64,000 nt of DNA from Oceaniovalibus sp. ACAM 378 (GTDB lineage Bacteria; Pseudomonadota; Alphaproteobacteria; Rhodobacterales; Rhodobacteraceae): assembly GCF_008085915.1 (NCBI RefSeq), contig NZ_VSJK01000020.1:1-64000 (forward strand). The letters run 5' to 3'. The notes under the pieces are model-generated. The model ran no database searches. It worked only from the letters and a program-made list of their open reading frames with translations, and was not told the origin of the DNA. Shown one piece after another: positions 34,514 to 42,541 of this stretch (its first letter is position 1; each line of letters opens with the position of its first letter). The position numbers and the translations under genes were made by a program.

Positions 34514-35713
34514 ATGTCTTTCAAAAGCAAACATTATCCGGTGCTTGCGCTTGCGCTTTGCGCCACTCTGACCGCATTTTCGGCCCCGAGCGTCTGGGCG
34601 CAGCAGGCAGAGTCCACCACGCCGGAAAAGAACGAGATTGAACAGCTCGAAGAGGCGCTGAAACCCTATGTCATGCCAAGGTCTGGGCCGTTCCGTCCTG
34701 ATCAGATTGCCATCGGGCAGGCAGCGGCCATCTCAGCTTGGGCAGGATCGGCCCATGCCAATGCGTCATCGGAATCCTTTTCACACTGGAACGATGAAGG
34801 CGAGATCCCGCCGGTCTGCGCGACTTGCCATGCCGGAGCTGGCTTTCGTACGTTTTATGGCTTGGACGGTAGCGCGCCCGGGCTGGCCGAACATCCCGTC
34901 CCGACGGGTGGGGTCGTCGATTGCGAAACTTGCCACAATCCGGGCCTGTTGGAAGTCAAGGAAGTGCGCTTTCCCAGCGGTTTGATGCACCCCGTCGAAC
35001 CCGGAGAGGCATCGTGCCTGACCTGCCATCAAGGCCGTGCAGCCGGGACCACGGTGGAGAAGGCGGTGGCCGAGATGGCCGACGATACGCCGAACCCGGA
35101 GCTGGGTTTCATCAACCCGCACTATGCGGTCGCCGCGGCGACATGGCTGGGCGGTTACGGCGGGTCGGGGTATCATTATCCCGGCAAGGCGTATTCAGGC
35201 CGCTTTTTCCACGCCCGCCCCGTCGCCAGCTGCGCGTCCTGCCACGAGCCTCATACACTGAAGGTGGTCGAGCAATCCTGCATGACCTGTCACGAGGAAC
35301 CGGCGGCGAAGGATATCCGACTATCACGGCTCAGCTATGACGGCAGCGGAGATCTGACGAAAGGGATCAGCGCCGATATCGCTGCCAATGCGGGTGTGTT
35401 GAAACAGATGCTGGCGGACTACGCGACCAAAGTTGTCGGTATTTCGATGGTTTATGACGGACACCGCTATCCGTATTTCTTTGCCGATGTGAACGGCGAT
35501 GGCCGTGCCGACATGTCCGGCGACAACCCGACCGCCTACAGGGCGTGGACACCGCGCCTGTTGAAGGCCACCTATAACTGGAAATTCGTGACGGCAGATC
35601 CCGGTGCCTATGCGCATAATCCGCATTACGCATTGGAATTGCTGTACGATTCTATCGAGGATCTTGCAGGGACGCTGGATCGCGACATGTCTACCCTAGG
35701 CATTCAACGGTAA
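34514..35713 (+). CDS. Periplasmic pentaheme cytochrome c
   Basis: A 399-residue secreted protein with a signal peptide cleaved near VWA-QQ (about residue 29). Five CxxCH heme sites are visible: CATCH 102, CETCH 137, CLTCH 168, CASCH 240 and CMTCH 256. The C-terminal 140 residues lack heme sites and include DVNGDGRADMSGDN, a loop rich in Asp/Asn that resembles a calcium-binding motif. A function in electron transfer is certain in kind but unknown in partner. The divergent position next to an NQR-like operon suggests it accepts or donates electrons for that complex. Confidence 0.88.
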   Translation: MSFKSKHYPVLALALCATLTAFSAPSVWAQQAESTTPEKNEIEQLEEALKPYVMPRSGPFRPDQIAIGQAAAISAWAGSAHANASSESFSHWNDEGEIPPVCATCHAGAGFRTFYGLDGSAPGLAEHPVPTGGVVDCETCHNPGLLEVKEVRFPSGLMHPVEPGEASCLTCHQGRAAGTTVEKAVAEMADDTPNPELGFINPHYAVAAATWLGGYGGSGYHYPGKAYSGRFFHARPVASCASCHEPHTLKVVEQSCMTCHEEPAAKDIRLSRLSYDGSGDLTKGISADIAANAGVLKQMLADYATKVVGISMVYDGHRYPYFFADVNGDGRADMSGDNPTAYRAWTPRLLKATYNWKFVTADPGAYAHNPHYALELLYDSIEDLAGTLDRDMSTLGIQR

Positions 35714-35729
35714 GCTGACCCGAGCGGGA

Positions 35730-36313
35730 CTGGAACCCTGTTACCCGGTAGTGTTGATGGACGCGATCCGGGTCAATATCCGCAGCAACGGGGCGGTCTG
35801 CAACAAGGCGGTCTTCGTGGCCCTGGCGATCCTGCCGGACCGCACGCGTGACGTCCTGGGCCTGTGGTTTCAGGCCAACGAGGGCGCCAAGTTTTGGGCA
35901 AAGGTGCTAAACGATCTCCGCAATCGCGGTGTCCAAGGCATCCTCATTGCTGTGGTCGACGGCCTCAAGGGCTTTCCCCAGGCCATTGAGGCGGCCTTTC
36001 CAAAAACTCAGGTCCAGACGTACATCGTCCATCTGCTGCGCCACTCCATGAGCTTTGCCAGCTACAAGGATCGCAAGGCCGTGGCGACAGCGCTGAAGGC
36101 GGTCTACACGGCCTTGGACGCCGGAGCGGCAGAGGCCGCGCTGGCCGAGTTCTTCGCACTCGAGGCCACTCCCCAATCGATGAGGCGGCAGCGAAATTGA
36201 TTTATCTGGCGCTCAATGCTACATCCAATAAGTGTAGGCGCTCCGTGCGAGAATGGCACGCTGTCAAAAGCCAGTTCGCCATCACGTTCGAAGAACTCTT
36301 CCCAATGGCGTAA
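35730..36313 (+). pseudogene. IS256-family transposase C-terminal fragment
   Basis: The frame from about 35730 reads YPVVLMDAIRV (first catalytic Asp), NKAVFVALAILPDRTRDVLG, an IAVVDGLKGFPQAIEAAFP segment (second Asp) and VHLLRHSMSFASYKDRK. A frameshift near 36175 moves the end (KLIYLALNATSN, then FAITFEELFPMA) to another frame, stopping at 36313. The N-terminal 170 or so residues are missing. It lies directly downstream of the cytochrome gene. Confidence 0.85.
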
Positions 36314-36488
36314 TAAAACGCGTCAGGGCGGCGCTGTTGCGCAAATCGGGCAAAGGCCGCAATGCCCCTTTCGCCGGAGACACTTATCCTACGGCCATTG
36401 TGACGGGTATGCCGAGTGCCGTGAAACGGTTCAGCACCGCAGCGCGGATCTGAACCTCGGCAACTTGGCGGTCAAAGTCACGCGCCAT

Positions 36489-36525
36489 GCATTGCCCGGC
36501 AGTCGCGCTTGCAGCGATGAGAGGG
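36489..36525 (+). repeat. Hairpin mini-element copy 4
   Basis: TGCCCGGCAG (36493-36502), hairpin TCGCGC-TT-GCAGCGA with one bulged base, then TGAGAGGG ending at 36525. It interrupts GQRL/MARDFDRQ of the transposase. The insertion appears to be 36 bp, so the frame is kept and 12 extra residues would be translated. Confidence 0.72.
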
Positions 36526-36731
36526 AGGCGCTGACCAAGCCCCTTCACACAGTTCATCTTCGTCTCAACTCGACTTCGTGGGTGATACTCGGTCCAACGC
36601 CGCCACAGTGATCGGCCGAGATATGTTGAGGCCCAGAGCGCCTCGTTGCGGGCCCTGGCTCCGGCAGTGGTCGGCTTCCACGGCATGTCGTTCCGGCGTG
36701 GCGGGATGATTGCGGCCGCACCGTGGTCGGA

Positions 36732-36768
36732 CCCTCTCGTGCATGTAAACATGCACTGCCTGGCAGTG
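36732..36768 (-). repeat. Hairpin mini-element copy 3 (inverted)
   Basis: On the minus strand it reads TGCCAGGCAG, perfect hairpin GTGCATG-TTTA-CATGCAC, then GAGAGGG. The orientation is opposite to copies 1, 2 and 4. It interrupts the transposase block CHNAI/DHGAAAIIPP and shifts the frame. Confidence 0.72.
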
Positions 36769-36977
36769 GATGGCATTGTGGCACTTCAGCGTATCAAAGG
36801 CGCCATCGGCGGTGACGGTTGCGATCTCTTGCTCCGGGTCAATCTGGTCGAGCAATTCTGGCAGCATCGGTGCATCTCCGACATTGCTGGTGGTGACCTC
36901 CACCGCCCGGATATCTCCAGTGTTTCCTCGTCGATCCCGAGGTGGATTTTGCGCCAAACCCGCCGCTTCGGGCCGCC

Positions 36978-37015
36978 CATTGCCCGGCAGTCGAAACGAA
37001 GTTTCGATGAGAGGG
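36978..37015 (+). repeat. Hairpin mini-element copy 2
   Basis: TGCCCGGCAG (36981-36990), perfect hairpin TCGAAAC-GAA-GTTTCGA (36991-37007), then TGAGAGGG ending at 37015. Inserted between the His and Gly-Gly codons of the transposase block ARKH/GGPKRR; AT stands on both sides. About 38 bp. Confidence 0.75.
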
Positions 37016-37066
37016 ATGCTTGCGCGCGTGCCACTCACCTTCAACCTTGATGCCGGTGCTGTCCAC

Positions 37067-37103
37067 TGCCCGGCAGTCGCTGCTTGCAGCGACGCGAGGG
37101 GGT
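37067..37103 (+). repeat. Hairpin mini-element copy 1
   Basis: Core TGCCCGGCAG at its left end, perfect hairpin TCGCTGC-TT-GCAGCGA (37077-37092), right part GCGAGGG. It is a 37-bp insertion between the Leu-Leu and Val-Asp-Ser codons of the IS5-type transposase, as judged from the intact flanking frames (L codon ends at 37104, V codon begins at 37066). Confidence 0.75.
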
Positions 37104-37581
37104 CAAGAGGTGCAATGGCCCCTTCGATCCGCGATACGGGACAGCCACGTTCAAGGTCTTTTGCCGGCGGCCCAGCGTGCTGAAAATTGGCACGGACCCG
37201 TCGAACCCGGCGAGCTTCAGCAGGCTCGCGACAAACCCAGTCGTTTGCCGAAGCGCCATGCCGAAGAGGACCTTGAGCGTAAGGCAGGCCTGAATGGCCG
37301 CATCCGTATAGATCGGTTGGCGGCCGCGTTTGCCCGTCGGTGCAGCCTCCCACACCATATCCGGATCGAACCAGACGCTCAGCGATCCACGCTGTTTCAG
37401 CGCGAGGTTGTAGTCATGCCAGTTCGTGGTCTTGTAGACTGTCTTTGCAGATATCCTCATGCCGCTAAGCTACCACATTGGATTCCTGTGGTGAATCCCA
37501 AGCAGGCTTTGCGCAACAAGGCCGCATCAGCTTCAAAAAGAGCCACAAAATAGAAACTTAACTGGGAAAGCAGGGAAAGAC

Positions 37582-38633
37582 TTGAAAACCAAACGCAGGG
37601 ATATTGGCCTACCGCCTTGGCAATCGCATTGTTGGGCACGCAATCCTATGCGCAGGAAAAAAATCCTGCGTTTCGTGCATGACAGCAATGGTAACATATA
37701 CGACAATCCAAACCATGCCTGCGCATCGGTCTTTGCCGGTATTGTGAACACCGGAAGCAACGTGCACTGAAGGTTGAGATTTATCCCGGCGGTCAACTTG
37801 GCACAATCGGCGAAGCAGTCCAGATGGTGCACGATGGTGTGATCGAAGTGACCAATGCCTCGATAGGAGCCCTCGCGCCTTATTATCCACGCATCGACGT
37901 TCTGAACCTGCCCTTTGCCTTCGCCAGCAATGGCGCAGCCGATATGACTTTTAATGGCCCGTTCGGTAATGCGCTGGCAAAAGATATCGAGGCAAGCTTG
38001 GGCGATGTCTTGGTTGTGGGCTATCCGGATACTGGCGGCTTGTTCGTGATTTCGAACTCGAAAAGGGAAATCTCCACGCTCGAAGAAATGAAGGGAATTC
38101 GCATGGGTACCATGACGCTGCCGTCACATCAGGCGATCATGAAGTCCCTCGGCATGGAGGCTTATCCGCTAGCCTTCTCCGAAGTCTATTAGGGGCTTCA
38201 AACCGGCGTAATCGATGGGCAGATGAATCTGATCCCGATCTTGGTTTCCGCCAAGCTTGATGAAGTGCAGAGCTATCTCACGTTGACCAACCACCTTTAA
38301 TTGCCATTCACGATGCTCTTTAACAAGACATTCTATGAAGATTTGACCGAGGATCAAAGGGATTTTATCCAAACCGCAGCGCAATCCTGCGAAGCAGCGG
38401 CCTACGGCATTTCCCATATCATTGAAGCCTCGGATCGTGGTCTGGCCGGACTGGCGGACAAGATTACAATCACAGCAAAGTCACCTAAAGATCGTACTGA
38501 GATGCGTGAAGTAACGGGCGCGGCGTTTGACAAGTTTATGCTCGAAACCCACGGCGAGGATGCGATCGCGCTGGTAGACTTCCTCAAGGCCGAAAGCGAA
38601 AAAGCAAATAATACGCGCTACTTCGGAGAATAA
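37582..38633 (+). pseudogene. dctP: TRAP solute-binding protein (DctP) pseudogene
   Basis: Remnant of a DctP gene. A signal-peptide-like segment (LAIALLGTQSYAQEKNPAF, about 37615-37670) is followed after frame damage by VEIYPGGQLGTIGEAVQMV (37770 on), LNLPFAFASN, TLEEMKGIRMG and, after an in-frame TAG (38190) and TAA (38298), LPFTMLFNKTFYEDL to the stop at 38633. At least one frameshift and two stops make it non-functional. No intact dctQ/dctM follows; the neighbouring DNA is IS6 copy C. Confidence 0.85.
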
Positions 38634-38821
38634 ACTCCACGACAAATCATCTTGGGGGCAGGGTATGACTTGCCCCCAAAATCCGCGCGCCGCGTCGTTA
38701 TCGGCCGGGCCCGAATCCTGACTCTCAATGCCAACGAAAGAAAATTTTATGCGATCGACCCTTGGGGAAACCAGATCGAGCGTTCAGCGCACGCACGCCC
38801 TGATTTGCAATGACAGTCACG

Positions 38822-39631
38822 GGGATAGTCAAGTTATCGGCGATCTTGGCAGCGAAAGTCGGGACGCCGGATCTCAAACAGCGTTTAGCTCACGAGTGAT
38901 GTCGTCCCAGATCCAATGGGCGTCGGCTCTGGATTGTCTGTAAGTAGCGGCTGAAAGGGTGTGTCGGCGCGGCCGGAAGATGTTTTGGACCTGATCATGG
39001 ACGGACAAGAACCGCTGGGCTTGGCGGGGAGATTTGAAACGACCGATGATCTTTTCTCGCCGCCGTGTCGGCCTGTGTGACCCTTCGCATCGATTGTTGA
39101 GACCTTTGTGGCTGCGATGCTCTATTCCCGCAGGAGGCTTTTTCAAGGCAGCCCCGTAGCTTCGGAGTTTATCAGTGACGATCACCCGGGGCGCACCAAA
39201 TGCTTTGAATAGCCTGCGGAAAAAGCGACTTGCCGCCCGTTTGTTGCGCCGAGGCTGCACGAGGATGTCGAGCACATCGCCACGGCTATCGACGGCGCGC
39301 CAGAGCCAATATTTCTTGCTGTTTATCGGAATAACGACTTCGTCTAAGTGCCATTTGTCCGCCGTTGCGGGACGATCCCGGCGGATTGCTTGCGCATATT
39401 TCAGCCCGAATTTCGCAACCCACGAGCGGATTGACTCGTAGCTGACCACAATTCTGCGCGCGGCCAACAGGTCCTCGGCATCGCGCAAGCTCATGGGGAA
39501 TCGGTGATAGGCCCAGACAGGGTATGCGATAATCTCTGGTGGGAAACCGTGGCCTAAGAAGGCACCAGGTTGCTTGGGTGGTCATAAGAAAACCGACCGC
39601 CACGTGCGTCCGCCCGCAACTTGACGATGCC
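38822..39631 (-). mobile_element. IS6-family element, full length with decayed start (copy C)
   Basis: The termini are imperfect inverted repeats: GGCATCGTCAAGTTGCGGG read from 39631 and GGGATAGTCAAGTTATCGG from 38822, giving about 810 bp. The transposase frame on the minus strand (38874-39494 from an internal Met) covers SIRSWVAKFGLKYAQ, WHLDEVV, VIVTDKLRS, RRREKIIGRFKS and the end RELNAV. The upstream part (FPPEIIAYPVWAYHRF) is in frame but has no good start because the first codons (MTTQATW) are frameshifted. I see no matching 8-bp target duplication. Confidence 0.85.
38874..39494 (-). CDS. IS6-family transposase (copy C)
   Basis: A 206-codon frame holding the complete DDE catalytic domain: Asp in DKWHLDEVV, Asp in VIVTDKLRS, Glu in RRREK. 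The ATG used is internal (MSLRDAEDLL); the normal N-terminal helix is encoded just upstream without a start. Activity is doubtful. IS6 transposases cut and join ends replicatively to make cointegrates. Confidence 0.7.
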   Translation of the reverse strand: MSLRDAEDLLAARRIVVSYESIRSWVAKFGLKYAQAIRRDRPATADKWHLDEVVIPINSKKYWLWRAVDSRGDVLDILVQPRRNKRAASRFFRRLFKAFGAPRVIVTDKLRSYGAALKKPPAGIEHRSHKGLNNRCEGSHRPTRRREKIIGRFKSPRQAQRFLSVHDQVQNIFRPRRHTLSAATYRQSRADAHWIWDDITRELNAV

Positions 39632-39747
39632 GTTGCTCAATGACCTGACCATCAGCATTGTTGCGGTTGCGGCTGCGCGCCTCCGTGCACTGCAGAAAAG
39701 TCGAAGGAAGGGGTGAGTGAGGCCGAGCCGCGCGATGCGATGGGCCG

Positions 39748-39770
39748 AGACCCGACAACGCAACAGTCCC
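39748..39770. repeat. 23-bp repeat, likely IS terminus
   Basis: This 23-bp stretch, which ends CAACGCAACAGTCCC, is identical to 63283-63305, and its last 11 bases are the reverse complement of 5743-5753. It probably marks the right end of an IS family with terminus GGGACTGTTGC; the internal parts of the element have been lost here. Confidence 0.55.
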
Positions 39771-39907
39771 ACTACCAGAGCCTACAGAGCCTCACGCCAG
39801 CTGACGCCTACTCCGAGCGCGGCCAGATCATTCTGAAACAACGGGAAAGGATCAAACAAAAGACCACCGAAACCCGGCGCTTGCTTCACCGAAAATCCGC
39901 CGCATAA
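39771..39907 (+). pseudogene. IS3-family integrase C-terminal fragment
   Basis: The frame reads LQSLTPADAYSERGQIILKQRERIKQKTTETRRLLHRKSAA and stops at 39907. This is the C-terminal tail typical of IS3 OrfB. Everything upstream has been replaced by the 23-bp IS end. No catalytic residue remains. Confidence 0.75.
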
Positions 39908-39984
39908 TCGCATGGACTAGATGAGCCAGAGCCTCCCTTAAATCAGGCAGCCAAATGGCCCAAAATCCCTGACGAAGGAAAATG

Positions 39985-40214
39985 CCGCCGGAATGCTACG
40001 ATGATCGCCTCCTCATCGAGCGTCAGCACCGTGGATTTCGCGTCCTTCGGCCCGGTCGGCAGATCGGCAACCGACGTCCGCTTGCACTACTTGGCCACGC
40101 CTTCTGATTGATCCCGTAGCGCGCCGAAAGCGCCCTCAGGCTCTCTTCACTATTTTGTATTGCTCGACGGATTGCCTCAGTCGTCGTGGCGCTGCCGTGA
40201 AAAATCTGGCCCAT
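39985..40214 (-). pseudogene. IS481-family transposase N-terminal fragment
   Basis: From ATG 40214 the frame reads MGQIFHGSATTTEAIRRAIQ, then ESLRALSARYGINQK, the helix-turn-helix of IS481-type transposases. After a frameshift near 40095 the reading continues as PKDAKSTVLTLDEEAIIVAF to about 39985. The DDE domain is absent. Confidence 0.8.
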
Positions 40215-40274
40215 AGTGCCTCCTTCCAGTCCAACGAAAAGATTGCACCATCAAAGTCCGGGATCAAACACCTA

Positions 40275-41768
40275 ACCGGCTCACTTCTGCGTGGACATCT
40301 ATACCTTCGGGGCTATCTGGATCGCGCTCGCGCTGCCGAGATGGGATGGCCACCGCCAGATGATTTTGTCCGACACCGACCTCGACCGACTGATCTATCC
40401 GCGGACAGCGCGGGACGTTTCGAACCGTGCGACCCAGCCTGACTGGGCGTATATCCACCGTGAGCTGCGCCGCAAGGGCGTGACGTGGTCCCTGCTGTGG
40501 GAGGAATATCGCGCCAATTACCCTCAGAGCTATGGCTACTCCCGGTTCTGCGACCTTTACACGCGGTGGGAAGGCAAGCTGTCGCCGGTGATGCGTCAGC
40601 GCCATCTGTTACCCGGCAGGTGAATGCTTGCATTCACCGAGAGGGCGGCCGGCGAGTGGCTGTTTGTCGATCACGCGGGGCACACGATCGATGTGATTGA
40701 TCCCCAGACCGGCGAGGTGCGCCCTGCACAGCTGTTCGTCGCGGCGCTCGGGGCCTCAAGCTACATCTTTGCGGAGGCGGCCTGGACGCAATCCCTGCCA
40801 GATTGGATCGCGAGCCATGTGCGCGCCTTTGGCTTCCTCGGAGGTGTATGGCCCAGATTGTGTCCGGCAATCTGAAGGTCGGGGTCACAAAGGCCTGCTT
40901 CTATGACCCTGCAATCAACCGGACCTATGCGGATATGGCTACCCATTACGGCACGGCCGTGGTGCCTGCGCGGCCGCACAAACCCAAGGATAAAGCAAAG
41001 GTCGAGGCCGCGGTTTTATTGGTTGAGCGCTGGATCCTGGCGCGGCTGCGTAATCAATAATTCTTCAGCTTTGGGGACGTGAACGCTGCCATTCGCCCGC
41101 TGCTGGACCGGCTCAACGACAAGGTCTCACGCCATCTCGGGGCCAGCCGCAGGCAGCTGTTCGAGCGGTTGGACAAGCCCGTCCTGAAGCCACTGCCGGT
41201 GGCGCCTTATGTCTACGCCGAATGGAAGAAGTGCCGCGCCGGGCTCGATTACCACATCGCGATCGACAGGCATTATTATTCGGTGCCCTATCAGTTGCTG
41301 AAGAAAGAGCTGTGGGCGCGTATCACCGCCCGGACGGTCGAAGTCTTCCATATCGGCAGACGCGTGGCCTCGCATGTGCGCACTTCCGGCAACGGGCAGC
41401 ATTCCACGCAGCGCGACCACATGCCGGCACACCACAGGTTCCGCGAAGATTGGACGCCGCAGCGCCTCCAGGCCTGGGCCGCCCGTGTCGGGCCGAACGT
41501 CGCGATCTTCGCAGAGGTCGTTATGCGCGACCGCAAGCACTGTGAACAAGGCTATCGCACCTGTCTGGGCGTGATCCGGCTGGCTGACAGGTTCGGTCGA
41601 GACCGCCTCGCTGCTGCCTGCCGAAGGGCGCTTGAGATCAATGCCAGGTCCTACTCATCGGTCCAGTCCATTCTGAAGAATGGGCGGGAAAGCAAACCTC
41701 GTAACCGCGCCACGGAGGAGCCTGCCATCACCCACACCAACATCCGTGGCGCCGAATACTTCCATTGA
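40275..41768 (+). pseudogene. istA: IS21 istA transposase, disrupted
   Basis: IstA segments in order: a short piece in another frame (GYLDRARAAEMGWPPPDD), then DWAYIHRELRRKGVTW, YGYSRFCDLYTRWEGKLSPVMRQRH, the hairpin mini-element with an in-frame [26 protein letters not shown] (catalytic Asp), a frameshift near 40847, [17 protein letters not shown], a TAA at 41058, then FFSFGDVNAAIRPLL to ARSYSSVQSILKNGR and the stop at 41768. The N-terminal 100 or so residues are missing. At least four lesions, so not functional. Confidence 0.85.
40609..40645 (+). repeat. Hairpin mini-element copy 5, in istA
   Basis: Left part TTACCCGGCAG, perfect 8-bp hairpin GTGAATGC-TT-GCATTCAC (40620-40637), right part CGAGAGGG (40638-40645). 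It separates MRQRH from AGEWLFVD, which are contiguous in related IstA proteins. The insertion keeps the frame but brings a TGA at 40621. Confidence 0.75.
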
Positions 41769-42541
41769 AAGGACCCGACAAGCTCCCTCATCCAACCCTC
41801 GATCACCTGAAGGCAATGCGACTGGACCGCATGGCCGAAGCCTTAGCGGACCTTCAGGCCCAAGATGGTGCCGCCGATCTCAGCCACGCCGAATGGCTTG
41901 GTCTGCTGGTCGATCGCGAAGTCGCAAGCCGAGAAACCAAGCGCTTTGAAGCCCGGATGCGCTCCGCCAGGTTGCGCCATGTGGGTGCTTGCCCAGAAGA
42001 TGTCGATTGCCGCGCGCGGCGCGGCCTCGACAAGGCGCTGTTCCAAAGTCTACTCACCGGCAAATGGATCACCGACAAGCGCGGTCTGATCCTCACCGAC
42101 CCCTGTGGGGTCGGCAAAACCTGGCTCGGCTGCGCCCTGGCACAAGCAGCCTGTCGCGACGGTGTCACCGTGGTCTACCAGCGAATGCTGCGCCTCTTCG
42201 AAGATCTGGAACTGGCCCATGGAGACGGTCGCTTCCCCCGGTTGTTTCGCAGCATCACGAAAACCCAGCTGATGATCCTCGATGATTGGGGGCCGGACCG
42301 GCTTACCGCCACGCAGCGCCGCAATCTGATGGAGATCGTCGAGGAGCGATACGGTCGCAGCTCAATCATGATCACCAGCCAGTTGCCCATCAAAGCGTGG
42401 CATGACGTCATCGGCGAGCCGACATTTGCCGACGCCATTCTCGATCGCATCGTTCACAACGCCTACCGCATCGAGCTGGAGCGGCAATCTATGCAGAAAA
42501 CCATCGCCAAAATGGATGACGGCGAAACGCCCCAAACCTGA
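41765..42541 (+). CDS. istB: IS21 IstB helper ATPase
   Basis: A 258-residue AAA+ ATPase that assists IstA in target selection. N-terminal helical region HPTLDHLKAMRLDRMAEALADL; P-loop near residue 112; Walker B LMILDDWG near 175; sensor motif ITSQLPIKAWHDVIGEPTFADAILDRI, all typical of IstB. The P-loop reads TDPCGVGKTW, with Asp where the family has Gly, which may impair nucleotide binding. Starts 4 bases before the end of istA. Confidence 0.9.
   Translation: MKGPDKLPHPTLDHLKAMRLDRMAEALADLQAQDGAADLSHAEWLGLLVDREVASRETKRFEARMRSARLRHVGACPEDVDCRARRGLDKALFQSLLTGKWITDKRGLILTDPCGVGKTWLGCALAQAACRDGVTVVYQRMLRLFEDLELAHGDGRFPRLFRSITKTQLMILDDWGPDRLTATQRRNLMEIVEERYGRSSIMITSQLPIKAWHDVIGEPTFADAILDRIVHNAYRIELERQSMQKTIAKMDDGETPQT

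Follow-up and report, generated by a model that had tools for sequence, protein, structure and literature searches.

How does a palindrome of about 40 bp find transposase genes, or come to be kept only in them? The question is raised by a stretch of 64,000 nucleotides from Oceaniovalibus sp. ACAM 378 (positions 1 to 64,000 of contig NZ_VSJK01000020.1), hereafter the window, in which an initial annotation made from the letters alone had pointed out five copies of a short hairpin element, four inside one IS5-type transposase gene and one inside the istA gene of an IS21-type insertion sequence (IS). All five copies were present, and the annotated limits lay within 3 bases of those set by alignment to element-free relatives. 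These were ISSpo9 of Ruegeria pomeroyi, annotated as an IS5-like element, from which all four copies inside the IS5 gene are missing, and the annotated istA of Sulfitobacter sp. OXR-159, which lacks the fifth. Compared with these relatives, all five copies are clean insertions without target duplication (Table 1). The window contains the exact pattern CCGGCAG-N10-24-GAGAGGG three times, compared with 0.01 in shuffled sequences, and the remaining two copies are substituted versions of it (CCAGGCAG; GCGAGGG). As the annotation had stated, no copy was found in the window outside transposase homology, by searches which strongly decayed copies would escape. The annotation knew of no described family with these features; likewise, we found no earlier description of this hairpin family, or of any mobile element of about 40 bp almost confined to transposase genes of many unrelated families, in the open literature, which leaves most subscription journals uncovered. 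The anatomy is nearest to that of repetitive extragenic palindromes (REPs).

Comparison of empty and filled sites gave the element consensus CAYTGCCCGGCAG-hairpin-YGAGAGGG, typically 37-43 bp long, in which the fixed feet CAYTGCCCGGCAG (5') and GAGAGGG (3') enclose a single hairpin; some copies start with TGTTAC, TATTAC or CGYTGM instead. The lengths of 207 distinct elements were 41 bp (66), 37 (46), 39 (29), 40 (24), 38 (19) and 43 (16), with 7 others. This set was picked with a pairing test that counted G.T as a pair and so leans towards G.T; its foot pair was G-C in 137, G.T in 68 and G.A in 2 elements. In distinct hairpins above the fold score, 1153 of 1221 inner pairs were Watson-Crick, 35 were G.T, 12 A.C and 21 other, and 57 hairpins of the pairing-selected set carried an additional T at one fixed place of the 3' arm. 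Pairs were recounted, with no pairing test, in 53 distinct inner sequences for which the left foot and GAGAGGG were the sole selection criteria. All except two of these fold (51/53), with 343 Watson-Crick, 15 G.T, 2 A.C and 8 other inner pairs, and the base preceding GAGAGGG, which pairs with the G of GCAG on the same strand, is T in 29 and C in 24. Stems vary freely in sequence while pairing is kept. The pairs also show a strand preference: since G.T exceeds A.C (15 against 2), the strand as written seems to be the one that is folded and recognised. Variable stems on fixed feet form a natural series for folded-strand recognition. Rfam returned no match up to E 5 in window positions 35500-41500.

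The elements are concentrated in transposase genes, and the host families include IS3, IS5, IS481, IS66, IS256, IS21, IS30, IS91 and IS1182. Pfam searches of the flanking frames (134 and 112 frames, in some cases several for one element, many of them wrong frames without match) returned almost only transposase families, i.e., rve, DDE_Tnp_1, IS66, Mutator/IS256, IstB and others, with a few other families once each. Among 20 element-free proteins aligning across the junctions, 16 were transposases or IstB, one was a tyrosine recombinase and three had no match. All fetched elements, repeats included (n = 290), were placed against 76 element-free proteins and ten annotated ones, with labels given partly by similarity to the tested proteins; transposase homology spanned 189 of them, abutted 30, lay within 400 bp of 36 and was found at none of the remaining 35. 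Several of the last are at contig ends, several look transposase-like by eye (L108, L204; L numbers denote fetched stretches), and L015 and L147 are probably chance matches. The picture was the same for elements collected by the motif alone in five genomes, a partial fetch that included, e.g., 20 stretches for the 39 matches of genome G012 and six for the ten of G007: transposase homology was spanned or abutted by 85 of 94, while six were within 400 bp and three farther away. Six copies of one IS in genome G018 contribute 24 of the 94, and when this IS is counted once the figure becomes 65 of 74. Of the elements found in a contiguous 342 kb, 9/9 lay in transposase homology, which holds 18.8% of the RTCG sites (P ~3e-7, a value that is overstated, since several regions had been fetched for an element they hold). 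The annotation's view of a tiny element, mobile or mobilised, that prefers IS genes or is tolerated only there is supported in this way across many IS families and genera. As minor observations, a tyrosine recombinase (with its reference in L148) aligns across a junction in L143, and in L149 (1757-1795) one of the 35 elements not placed in transposase homology stands beside an apparent large serine recombinase; the hosts may include recombinases generally.

Matches to the pattern numbered 30 in the window's own genome (G000), 39 in G012, 15 in G018 and 10 in G007, with 0, 1, 0 and 2 matches, respectively, to the reversed pattern as control. At least one match was found in 37 of 61 related genomes, many single matches probably being due to chance, and in 31 of 61 genomes of a second sample, which was drawn for the order but whose members are all listed in the same family. 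Seven of 24 genomes from other families of the class had one or two matches, and the six of these sequences that were inspected by eye had no clear hairpin. A stricter pattern matched at least 115 stretches in the named genome collection. Among the matches listed, nearly all titles were Rhodobacterales; the others listed were Vreelandella (two stretches of one contig), Enemella, Labrenzia, Robiginitomaculum, two Hyphomicrobiales bins, one unplaced alphaproteobacterial bin and one Synechococcaceae match without a clean hairpin. The Vreelandella stretches (L085 and L114, V. neptunia contig 24) belong to a record of a gammaproteobacterium that carries IS and elements of Roseobacter type, and either plasmid transfer or a mixed assembly may be behind it. 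The label of the Enemella evansiae record looks wrong, as it is probably the same assembly as G007 (L158 and L053, G007 contig 7), which is placed in the window's own family.

The insertion target, approximately YYRTC|G, was derived from 145 distinct sites, kept from 189 aligned junctions or fewer after repeats and weak alignments had been removed. Target duplication was absent at the empty and filled junctions compared. The IS481 of L040 differs by 37 bp from its empty counterpart in Phaeobacter inhibens 2.10, and one IS3 with four clean insertions of 38, 38, 38 and 40 bp measures 1385 bp filled against 1231 bp empty. Relative to the host gene, 89 sites were antisense and 56 sense, and both orientations were found within single genes. 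The phases were 36/13/7 for sense sites (expected fractions.62/.23/.14) and 47/17/25 for antisense sites (.53/.17/.30), the expectation being a consistency check, since it derives from a motif built on the same sites. Because the phases match what the target motif predicts, protein-level selection of position is not needed to explain them, and selection for codon boundaries was rejected as the source of the phase 0 excess.

Element-bearing IS copies multiply with their elements. Two contigs of G018 hold six ~99% identical copies of an IS3-family element of 1385 bp, all with the same four elements, whose orientations alternate, and perfect 3-bp target duplications flank three of the six; no full-length element-free copy was among the genome matches. 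Removal of the 154 element bases leaves 1231 bp, the length of the intact Pseudosulfitobacter homologue, and an unbroken frame of 308 amino acids. One contig of G084 carries the same two elements in each of four IS copies, which are 98.9-99.7% identical and have no complete copy free of elements beside them, while in the window's genome the start of one IS5 occurs at four contig ends, 97-100% identical over 141 bp and filled in every case. G104 has four related copies, three of which share three elements, the truncated fourth having two; as read from translations, a frameshift lies near the conserved C-terminal end in three of the four and a deletion of ~131 bp in two. Since these copies multiplied with a broken transposase, copies unable to make the enzyme moved too, presumably in trans. 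The deletion, between GTCACC repeats (L296 1990-2160 compared with L299 2000-2060), removes one variant element from the two IS copies. Two further observations concern IS5 hosts. One IS5 of the window's genome with four elements has a fifth, variant one with a CCGGCGG foot at position 2356 of L027, and an IS5 relic of Pseudorhodobacter turbinis (L282, 2050-2880) has one intact-looking and several decayed elements at sites used in other IS5 genes and so shows stages of element decay.

On balance we lean towards the interpretation that these are a non-autonomous, REP-like family of hairpin elements, which moves as a folded strand handled in trans and for which IS genes are both haven and vehicle. 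The element would move as a folded single strand, either as single-stranded DNA or as RNA copied to DNA, and a predicted enzyme would act in trans on the folded form. IS genes would be a haven, since an insertion there should cost the cell nothing, and a vehicle, since they would multiply and transfer the element; with both roles, it would persist almost only in IS genes. Related elements would re-enter the same sites of homologous transposases. Several results weigh against this interpretation. The role of haven alone fails to explain the near-empty intergenic DNA: with only 3 of 94 copies farther than 400 bp from transposase homology, tolerance by itself is no explanation, since intergenic DNA should tolerate copies too. 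The intact 308-amino-acid frame of the four-element IS3 fits working filled genes equally well. Searches for the mover yielded no such enzyme. Y1_Tnp (PF01797) was found in two of 16 genomes searched (G012 and G034) and in neither of the element-rich G000 and G018, and the stretch around the G012 gene had no CCGGCAG, the core of the left foot, and a single GAGAGGG; it was rejected as the mover in these genomes, though a Y1 transposase of IS200/IS605 type might have acted in the past or from a plasmid. IS91-type Y2_Tnp, in three of 13 genomes and again in neither G000 nor G018, was rejected, as were reverse transcriptases, which are patchy: they occur in G000, G012 and G018 and not in the element-bearing G007, G003, G010 and G036, and they are present in G034, where the element pattern has no match. 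Finally, none of the 20 further stretches read around YTGCCCGGCAG matches in G000 and G018 contained a longer relative sharing the left end; one held a decayed element (L237), and otherwise nothing was element-like by eye.

Depending on how the opening question is answered, the family would stand for transposition of single strands by a new system, for a means of controlling insertion sequences or for an intron-like element of bacteria, each of general interest. The annotation had asked whether the motif might occur at chance level or the sequences be native in IS relatives. Isolated matches without a hairpin do occur in other families, but with 30 matches in the window's genome, where the reversed pattern has none, with matches located at empty-site junctions and with element-free relatives in existence, the probability of a chance motif or a native part of transposases is close to nil. 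A true REP family, moved by a RAYT (Y1 tyrosine transposase) that resides in other strains or has been lost from these, is unlikely. The GYAG variant of the REP tag is matched by the GCAG immediately 5' of the stem, and the stems of 6-9 bp, with their complementary changes and short loops, are like those of REPs (PMC3733652); clean insertion agrees as well. However, the tag is not terminal, the copies are intragenic, and the PF01797 searches gave the result reported above. We likewise regard it as unlikely that a host or plasmid system silences many IS families by inserting the hairpins into their transposase genes. It would account for the marked clustering of elements in transposases of unrelated families and for several elements per IS, and the most used IS5-group site (12 copies, at least 8 different hairpins) directly precedes a D codon, which we take to be the first catalytic one. 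Yet neither an enzyme nor a recognition mechanism for such a system was found, many sites lie elsewhere in the genes, the target motif is short and not specific to transposases, and filled IS copies multiplied.

Filled genes might also be functional, through removal of the element from the message, ribosome skipping or frequent precise excision from DNA, which we find rather unlikely. The four-element gene of G018, with its otherwise perfect frame in six copies and no full-length copy lacking the elements among the genome's matches, speaks for it; the G018 branch has 36 synonymous and 12 nonsynonymous changes, compared with 40 and 36 on the Pseudorhodobacter branch, though the insertions may be late on the G018 branch. 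Frame differences among the six copies themselves are, on the contrary, mostly nonsynonymous. A TGCATG hairpin occupies one site (site 211) in five members of an IS5 clade (support 1.0), of which the stop-free L027 and L163, from different genomes, show a proportion of synonymous differences (pS) of 0.42-0.45 and a ratio of nonsynonymous to synonymous rates (dN/dS) of ~0.13. Cross-genome pairs with the same filled site share the same hairpin in 6/10, 6/24, 5/24 and 3/27 cases as the hosts diverge, in total 20/85 (33/100 with within-genome pairs included), against 3.2% for random pairs; however, 13 of the 20 come from a single IS5 site. Moreover, the TGCATG site is empty in a sixth member of the clade, L282, which groups beside L098 (support 0.96), and three of the five filled members are from one genome, that of Puniceibacterium antarcticum, so that shared descent of the site-211 insertion is doubtful and not demonstrated. 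The same hairpin is found at site 211 in two IS5 genes outside the clade, those of the window and of L101, and a strict search for further copies found it in two of 394 genomes, the window's own and G096. Co-conversion tracts at shared sites were rejected, as flank identity is evenly raised and not near the element. Related elements do appear to occupy the same site more often, and inheritance, re-entry and loss are indistinguishable here. Against functional filled genes stand also the two orientations within one gene and the G104 copies, which share a frameshift or the ~131-bp deletion and multiplied without a working transposase. Of 69 near-full-length hosts, just 13 were free of stops and frameshifts, a count in which natural orfA/orfB shifts were scored as breaks and the G018 records wrongly as broken. 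The bolder proposal, that in several Roseobacter IS families transposase genes split by one to five mostly out-of-frame hairpins of either orientation still work, by an undescribed removal or skipping that reads structure independently of orientation, seems improbable.

The family was compared with known systems. Miniature inverted-repeat transposable elements (MITEs) are short, non-autonomous and multi-copy, as our elements are, but they have target duplications, which our elements lack at the empty and filled junctions compared; nor were terminal inverted repeats of an IS recognised in our elements, for which the 20 stretches read brought up no longer relative with a shared left end. Bacterial group II introns often lie inside other mobile elements and insert cleanly. 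This is shared by our elements, which differ in their ~40 bp, too short for group II ribozyme domains or a reverse transcriptase, and in occurring in both orientations. The mitochondrial byp elements of Magnusiomyces are short mobile hairpins in coding sequence with matching take-off and landing triplets and one orientation, whereas our hairpins in coding sequence have no matching triplets and occur in both. Integron attC sites are recognised as a folded strand with an extra-helical base and a variable stem, features that recur here, although the element sequences have no GTTRRRY/RYYYAAC boxes. Insertions of Rickettsia palindromic elements (RPEs) keep the reading frame; in contrast, the lengths of our elements are not frame-keeping and all phases occur. 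With RPE-4, RPE-6 and the CGTC-tagged REPs (PMC3733652) they share being short alphaproteobacterial palindromes, some intragenic, with no known transposase, and they differ from them by the missing CGTC tag and CCA tail and by having transposases as hosts. GTAG-tagged REPs with RAYT are short hairpins whose tag is GTAG or sometimes GYAG and whose stems show complementary changes and G.T pairs; our elements resemble them in being single hairpins of 20-40 bp with short loops, such stems and a G(Y)AG beside the 5' foot (PMC3733652). Unlike in these REPs, the GCAG tag is internal, as the element runs on by fixed extensions of 9 bases further 5' and 7 further 3'; two element-rich genomes have no RAYT and the one in G012 has no left foot nearby; and most copies (85/94) are in or against transposase homology, while REPs are mostly extragenic. 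As each of these three defining features (terminal tag, RAYT in the genome flanked by the repeats, extragenic placement) is lacking here, we call the family REP-like and not REP.

Table 1. Hairpin elements and their host genes in the window (positions are those of the window).
Feature	Position	Strand	Length	Description
Element 1	36490..36525	+	36 bp	CATTGCCCGGCAG..TGAGAGGG; antisense to IS5 transposase; absent from ISSpo9, clean junction; stem one base shorter than in relatives
Element 2	36732..36768	-	37 bp	CACTGCCAGGCAG-TGCATG TTTA CATGCA-CGAGAGGG; sense to IS5 transposase; at the site of TGCATG elements in other IS5 genes
Element 3	36978..37015	+	38 bp	CATTGCCCGGCAG-TCGAAACG..-TGAGAGGG; antisense to IS5 transposase
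Element 4	37064..37100	+	37 bp	CACTGCCCGGCAG-TCGCTGC..-CGCGAGGG; antisense to IS5 transposase; immediately before the codon for D in the DSTG motif
Element 5	40607..40645	+	39 bp	TGTTACCCGGCAG-GTGAATG..-CGAGAGGG; sense, in IS21 istA
IS5-family transposase pseudogene	36400..37460 (approximate)	-		ISSpo9-like host of four elements; profile match and alignment
IS21-family istA pseudogene	40291..41768 (approximate)	+		Host of one element; profile match and alignment
istB of the same IS21 element	41765..42541	+		Without element; NF038214, 4.5e-69

The IS5 host matches NF033579 on two pieces, which as fragments stay under the whole-protein cut-off, and the istA host matches NF033546, likewise under the cut-off. 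Compared with ISSpo9, the IS5 host has further damage in the form of a 2-bp insertion and a 6-bp gap. Nearby on the - strand (38874-39494) an IS6-family transposase (NF033587, 6.9e-56) was found with no element seen inside. On the + strand, positions 35751-36200 hold what is presumably a fragment of an IS256/Mutator-type transposase, and the broken frames at 37780-38633, between IS relics, we take to be a pseudogene of a solute-binding protein of the tripartite ATP-independent periplasmic (TRAP) type.

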